40,205 nt of DNA. It comes from Bdellovibrio sp. (GTDB lineage: Bacteria; Bdellovibrionota; Bdellovibrionia; Bdellovibrionales; Bdellovibrionaceae). The stretch is taken from the NCBI GenBank assembly GCA_014376935.1, contig JACMQO010000075.1:1-40205 (forward strand), in the 5' to 3' direction. Numbering within the stretch: the first letter of the stretch is position 1; each line of letters begins with the position of its first letter. Positions 39,205 through 39,545 of this stretch are shown here, piece after piece. Under the pieces are notes generated by a model. The model was not told where the DNA came from. It worked only from the letters and a program-made list of their open reading frames with translations, and did no database searches. A program made the position numbers and the translations under genes.

Positions 39205-39280
39205 GGCTCGGTAGCTCAGTTGGTAGAGCAGAGGATTGAAAATCCTTGTGTCGGCGGTTCAATTCCGTCCCGAGCCACCA
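39205..39280 (+). tRNA. tRNA-Phe (anticodon GAA)
   Basis: A full cloverleaf: acceptor GGCTCGG (39205-39211) with CCGAGCC (39270-39276), D arm GCTC-AGTTGGTA-GAGC, anticodon arm GAGGA-TTGAAAA-TCCTT with anticodon GAA, T arm GGCGG-TTCAATT-CCGTC (one G-U), discriminator A and an encoded CCA (39278-39280). 76 nt. It lies just before a large inverted repeat. Confidence 0.97.
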
Positions 39281-39364
39281 TTTCTTCCCCCATGACAAAT
39301 CCTCAGACAGCCGAAAAATTCCAGTAGGAATTTTTCGGAACTCGTTTTGTCATGGGGGAAGAAA
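39281..39364. repeat. 84-nt nested perfect inverted repeat abutting tRNA-Phe
   Basis: Outer arms TTTCTTCCCCCATGACAAA (39281-39299) and its exact complement (39346-39364) make a 19-bp stem. Inside, after asymmetric loops of 11 and 7 nt, a 12-bp stem CCGAAAAATTCC (39311-39322) / GGAATTTTTCGG (39327-39338) closes on AGTA. It begins at the base after the CCA end. It may be a terminator or processing signal for the tRNA, a small structured RNA, or a miniature mobile element inserted at a tRNA site. Confidence 0.8.
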
Positions 39365-39545
39365 TGGGAACTTAGTAAATTCTTTTTCTCTCGCGCGATT
39401 CATTTTTAAAGACTTACTCTTCGAAAGCCACGGACAGCAGAATGCTTTGAATTCGGAACTCCGTTTCGAAGGTTTAAATAAATTGGAAAACATCTGGATG
39501 ATTCGGTTTCTTCGAATTTTTCGGAATGCGGTTCTGGAGTGAAAA
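39365..39545. other. Short stretch without a recognised gene
   Basis: About 180 bases between the large hairpin and the lipoprotein gene. A plus-strand frame stays open to 39542 (for example ALNSELRFEGLNKLENIW), but it runs through the tRNA and hairpin and has no credible start, so I treat it as non-coding or a worn gene remnant. Confidence 0.3.

Follow-up and report, generated by a model that had tools for sequence, protein, structure and literature searches.

A dispersed hairpin family of Bdellovibrionales with a conserved internal loop and near-perfect, locus-specific arms

What is the long, perfect palindrome that directly follows a tRNA-Phe gene in Bdellovibrio sp., and how did it arise? 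The window analysed here is the whole 40,205-nt stretch of contig JACMQO010000075.1 (assembly GCA_014376935.1), and a first-pass annotation of its sequence had described a nested inverted repeat at the tRNA-Phe 3′ end. We re-derived the arms and the inner stem and found the palindrome to be real. The 19-bp outer stem described earlier (39281-39299/39346-39364) was indeed perfect, but the true arms were longer, with 22 perfectly paired bp (39278-39299/39346-39367) and 46 nt between them. The stem had been placed from the first base after the CCA onwards; in fact the arms include the CCA, which forms the outermost part of the left arm. The inner stem was a perfect 12-bp stem, as described (39311-39322/39327-39338, loop AGTA). 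Between the outer arms and the inner stem sits an asymmetric internal loop, which the earlier description lacked and which is the conserved part of the hairpin family reported below. The stretch at 39365-39545, formerly called unexplained, was found to hold a second, partly degraded copy of the core (39419-39471) and a possible fragment of a third (39514-39533). The features are as follows:

39205-39280, + strand: tRNA-Phe (GAA) gene (ARAGORN; Rfam tRNA, 71.3 bits)
39278-39299, + strand: upstream (left) outer arm, 22 nt, native sequence (CCATTT..., common to relatives)
39284-39361, + strand: hairpin 1 of the element (covariance-model hit R1, 73.1 bits, from a model that has hairpin 1 itself among the copies used to build it)
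39302-39310, + strand: 5′ side of the internal loop, conserved, CTCAGACAG, recurring elsewhere as CTCRGACA
39311-39338, + strand: inner stem-loop CCGAAAAATTCC-AGTA-GGAATTTTTCGG, with compensated stem variation among copies
39338-39344, + strand: 3′ side of the internal loop, conserved, GAACTCG, recurring in other copies
39346-39367, + strand: downstream (right) outer arm, 22 nt, matching the left arm as a perfect inverted copy
39419-39471, + strand: hairpin 2, a weaker second copy with outer stem CTTCGAAA/TTTCGAAG and core CACGGACAG...GAACTCC
39514-39533, + strand: possible relic of a third core, GAATTTTTCGGAATGCGGTT, a weak match (85% direct repeat of 39328-39347)

Hairpin 2 was placed 127 nt after hairpin 1 and gave a covariance-model hit at 39411-39479 (60.5 bits); its relative on contig C114 of the same genome showed a compensated inner stem. 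The 273-nt stretch had a folding energy of -92.4 kcal/mol, with a z-score of -5.64 against shuffled sequences. By simple arithmetic, chance would produce approximately 4e-7 perfect inverted repeats of 22 bp (spacer at most 160 nt) per 40 kb. Apart from the window palindrome, 131 kb of unselected DNA from the genus contained no perfect inverted repeat of 18 bp or longer. The downstream neighbour of the palindrome is a lipoprotein-like gene.

The placement directly after a tRNA gene would suit an ordinary intrinsic terminator of tRNA-Phe, and the inner stem followed by AACTCGTTTT scored as terminator-like (0.7 expected by chance). In an intrinsic terminator, a GC-rich hairpin is followed immediately by a U tract. 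At the window palindrome, the T run lay 6 nt from the inner stem (AACTCG before TTTT), and no T run followed the outer stem, as the first-pass annotation had observed. A terminator would explain neither the internal loop conserved in other copies nor arms of 20-90 bp, and further copies with the conserved core had no U tract after the stem; we consider this reading very improbable. The earlier proviso that the structure might act only as a terminator and lack other copies did not hold, as further core-bearing copies were found in the genome and in the order.

The window palindrome is one copy of a dispersed intergenic hairpin family across Bdellovibrionales. The feature that defines the family is the asymmetric internal loop 5′-CTCRGACA...GAACTCG-3′, which lies between the inner stem-loop and the outer stem. 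We found the exact core pattern twice in the window, on contigs C114, C129 and C170 of the same genome and in other species of the genus, with each of these copies capping a mostly long, perfect hairpin of differing sequence; the genome holds approximately five copies. A search with the arms as the query, as the first-pass annotation had proposed, did reveal one other place, the end of C114 (right half and hairpin 2 at 81%, right arm at 100% over 22 nt), where the contig stops within the hairpin, but missed the dispersed family, since almost every site has arms of its own. The first covariance model, built from seven copies, gave approximately 87 hits in 28 of 119 relatives, and the second, built from 47 copies, matched 64 of 141 genomes of the order. 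When the phylum was searched, matches with E <= 1e-5 were present in 54 of 369 genomes, all but two of them within the order. Against 85,000 prokaryote species, the strict pattern was found only in Bdellovibrionales MAGs and in one MAG titled only 'bacterium', with Pseudobdellovibrio sp. among the matches. The core was kept across about 31 genera. Comparison with Rfam 15 gave no match above the gathering score and only sub-threshold, microRNA-shaped matches; searches of the open-access literature gave no description of the family, which is apparently undescribed.

Assembly error is not the cause of these repeats, because the complete single-contig genome of the genus (G002) holds 12 copies. 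Some genomes, including G109 and G125, contained 40-70 copies, and those of G125 included tandem arrays with a period of 127-129 bp, the window hairpins also being 127 bp apart. G110 and G136 were copy-rich as well. The genome from which the window comes (G000) is a draft assembly in which contigs C129 and C20 each carry a cmk gene, the two being 71% identical. A second related organism may be present in the bin, from which the C129 and C114 copies may derive; the window copy and the other genomes are unaffected by such mixing. Genes that we take to be ORF6N-like lie near the C114 and C129 copies (L109:8105-8458 and L101:190-711), and the C114 gene has a separate inverted repeat in front of it, ACTAACTTGAGGT...ACCTCAAGTTAGT. 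At L106:4956-5144 (G009), two cores were nested in one long hairpin with 33-bp outer arms and 29-bp inner arms. A perfect 100-bp palindrome without a spacer at a contig end (L109:1-100) is probably an assembly artefact.

The first-pass annotation had suggested that the palindrome may be a tRNA-linked mobile or attachment element, a stable structured RNA or a cruciform-forming site. A repeated element or stable structure was borne out by the copies elsewhere in the genome and order, whereas an attachment site was not. The palindrome abuts the tRNA 3′ end, as the tRNA-linked attachment site of an integrative element would, but among approximately 100 copies only the window site and its G002 ortholog were seen behind a tRNA gene; almost all of the rest come after protein genes, and tens of genomes have copies downstream of such genes. 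No second tRNA-Phe end was found in the genome search, no att-like direct duplication was seen at the site, and no integrase gene stood out in the inspected 28-40 kb part of the window. We rejected an att site or tRNA island, since the CCA is duplicated in inverted form only and copies lie at protein genes, and we give this reading almost no weight. Extra partial tRNA-Phe 3′ ends, possibly traces of integrative elements, were seen in relatives at G055:C3:1776-1800 and G025:C10:187455-187484.

The outer arms, 20-90 bp in length, were locus-specific and nearly perfect. Within copies, 97.6% of 3921 bp were paired (107 copies), and in the first set of 94 copies the median arm was 29 bp and the maximum 90 bp, with 49 copies perfect. 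In G109, the core and inner loop were identical in many copies (pairwise median 100%), whereas the arms at bp 16-50 matched between copies at 47-55%, compared with 40% for shuffled arms; this comparison used raw sequences. Arms were likewise unshared between copies in G129, in G102 and in the genus. In 306 kb of DNA from the genus, from loci partly chosen for the element, 26 perfect inverted repeats of at least 18 bp enclosed the core, five lay within such elements and two were unrelated; among loci of the order, 51 such repeats had the core versus one without it.

Arms that pair this well could belong to a functional RNA, namely a 3′-UTR hairpin with a role in transcript termination, protection or processing, or in protein binding via its conserved internal loop, with its pairing kept by compensatory mutation. 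The gene contexts obtained by simple ORF calling agree with this reading: 40 of 51 copies followed a gene that points the same way, and convergent contexts outnumbered divergent ones (25 vs 4). The copies mostly lay just past stop codons, with the arm starting near the stop, and upstream stops were inside the arm in only 6 of 65 cases, by at most 6 nt. The arms thus almost never enter coding sequence, which would not be predicted if upstream DNA were simply copied. In five copies (L149, L151, L152, L153 and L155), the inner stem was a canonical terminator, and two convergent gene pairs of G002 (L103 and L104) had one hairpin per gene, each in the orientation of its own gene. Additionally, the unpaired core was conserved and the paired parts covaried; 22 of 24 pairs changed on both sides in 47 copies, with a covariation score of 0.828 versus 0.177 for shuffled sequences, although the alignment was fitted to the structure and these counts lean towards it.

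The substitutions in the arms argue against RNA-level selection. Selection for RNA pairing should leave many G-U pairs, with compensatory change passing through G-U intermediates, but these were nearly absent: we counted approximately seven G-U cells within 13 outer-arm pairs, among some 600 arm cells (about 1%), and the double changes ran from Watson-Crick to Watson-Crick. More than 10 bp from the core, the mismatches were A.C (14), G.T (12) and transversions (18), a balance expected for neutral mutation after copying and not for RNA pairing with wobble tolerance. Selection on a reverse-strand RNA (A.C 43 vs G.T 12, p = 3e-5) was rejected, as the bias was confined to the first 10 bp beside the core (38 vs 2) and was absent at greater distances. 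A terminator or protein site needs far less than the perfect stems of 50-90 bp, identical cores carry unrelated arms, and two orthologous copies between cmk and rpsA are antisense to the operon. The pattern of changes is better explained by one arm being copied from the other in DNA than by stepwise selection on RNA. We regard a functional RNA as a rather unlikely explanation of the family, and a 3′-end role of the hairpins is plausible, either as the leading rival or as an additional function.

Comparison with relatives indicated which arm is native. Downstream of tRNA-Phe, a region that the first-pass annotation had proposed for comparison, relatives share CCACCATTT without a palindrome. Only G000 and G002 have the palindrome there, with different arms that are each perfect, and their sites are orthologous (neighbouring protein 83% identical). 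At the cmk-rpsA site, nearly every species that has this gene order carries the rpsA -35 region TTGACC as native sequence. On C129, the native arm is the one on the promoter side, and its partner, GGGTCAATCCC, repeats the -35 region in inverted form; G004 shares this native flank and has no palindrome, and the elements of C129 and G003 at this site have unrelated arms. One arm therefore corresponds to an inverted copy of native adjacent DNA at two sites, as in template switching. At both sites compared (n=2), the upstream arm (in core orientation) is native and the downstream arm its inverted copy.

We propose, at a probability of roughly one half, that in most genomes the long arms do not travel with the conserved core but are locus-specific inverted copies of upstream DNA, written by fold-back synthesis (template switching). 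The core would fold in a replicating strand, its new 3′ end (...GAACTCGTTTT) would pair back onto the AAAG adjoining the core, and extension of this end on its own strand would place the upstream sequence, inverted, in the downstream flank. Recurrent template switching would then preserve perfect pairing even as the arm sequence drifts. There is a known precedent: template switching both generates and maintains perfect hairpin stems, and its intrastrand form corrects them to the 5′ base (PMC8794818). The finished hairpin would form the 3′ end of the upstream transcript, at the window presumably the tRNA-Phe trailer. We infer the fold-back synthesis, its enzyme and the role of the hairpin as a transcript 3′ end. 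Further observations count against fold-back copying: the first ~15 bp of the arms were conserved within a genome, and the arms were common to copies in G125 and G040, as they would be in an ordinary transposable element. The family therefore spreads in more than one way. The conservation of the core in about 31 genera counts against a mere mutation hotspot, which does not explain it.

The core appears to be mobile, because of the copy numbers and the identical subfamilies. A non-autonomous transposable element (MITE- or REPIN-like) moving whole would account for these subfamilies of 40-70 copies in G109 and G125, for the tandem arrays of G125 and for the inverted hairpin pairs of G002 (four, two of which lie between convergent genes). 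It would also suit G040, where copies lie within a ~210-bp element that has terminal inverted repeats and, as judged by eye, ~10-bp direct repeats at its ends. It does not account for arms that are unshared in G109, G129, G102 and the genus, and no core lay near either of the two Y1-transposase matches of this genome. Alternatively, a small element may insert into the loops of existing palindromes such as terminators, but the core-free tRNA-Phe and cmk-rpsA sites of relatives offer no palindrome, and core-free long palindromes were almost absent. We consider either form of transposition unlikely. In the G040 repeat (L237-L242), the terminal inverted repeats were AACTGGCCTACA...GTGTTGGTC, and the core occurred in either orientation relative to the flanks.

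Returning to fold-back synthesis, we tentatively suggest, with less confidence than even odds, a mobile core of ~40-60 nt that spreads among intergenic sites of Bdellovibrionales and, by self-primed fold-back synthesis, builds a long, perfect palindrome from the flank upstream of it; such an element would be selfish or host-used, with the arms remade at each site. In bacteria, dispersed palindromes are usually identified through their conserved stems. In this family conservation lies in the loop and the stem varies, so repeat searches based on the arms would overlook it. Should the arms indeed be products of fold-back synthesis, every copy would preserve a natural trace of template switching, and each genome would offer many independent cases in which the direction, length and fidelity of template switches could be studied. 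The family also cautions that strong covariation by itself is no proof of RNA-level function.

Finally, we compared the family with known systems. To our knowledge, the conserved letters of internal-loop ribozymes, K-turns and attC sites show no match to the core. TIGR arrays (PMC12045711) resemble the family in having repeats around variable segments and occur in parasitic bacteria and phages. They are short-guide arrays beside a tas gene, whereas the 20-90 bp arms here pair with each other and mostly stand alone, and TIGR arrays were set aside. The mitochondrial palindromes of Nematomorpha (PMC6649704) are similar in being many long, perfect inverted repeats (up to 284 bp). They lie inside animal mitochondrial coding genes, and the abstract does not mention a conserved core. 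MITEs are likewise palindromic, multi-copy and non-coding, and the G040 copies also have terminal inverted repeats and apparent ~10-bp direct repeats; MITE arms are common to copies, whereas here shared terminal inverted repeats were found in G040 and G125 and not in G109, G129, G102 or the genus. REP/REPIN sequences with RAYT (PMC3733652, PMC12306157) are also short dispersed palindromes, mostly between genes and also in inverted pairs. REP stems are conserved and end in GTAG or CGTC; in contrast, the stems here differ between copies and the internal loop is conserved. The genome had two Y1_Tnp matches, one over the cut-off, with no core beside either; no link to a RAYT was seen, and REP/RAYT was considered unlikely. 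Quasipalindrome or template-switch mutations are known in E. coli, yeast and RNA genes (PMC7202029, PMC3820800, PMC8794818), and the family shares with them stems that are perfect, an inverted copy of neighbouring DNA, compensatory changes of several bases and 5′-arm correction by intrastrand switches. Whereas those mutations reflect a general process at existing imperfect repeats, in the family described here a conserved core tips arms of 20-90 bp at dozens of sites and in dozens of genera.
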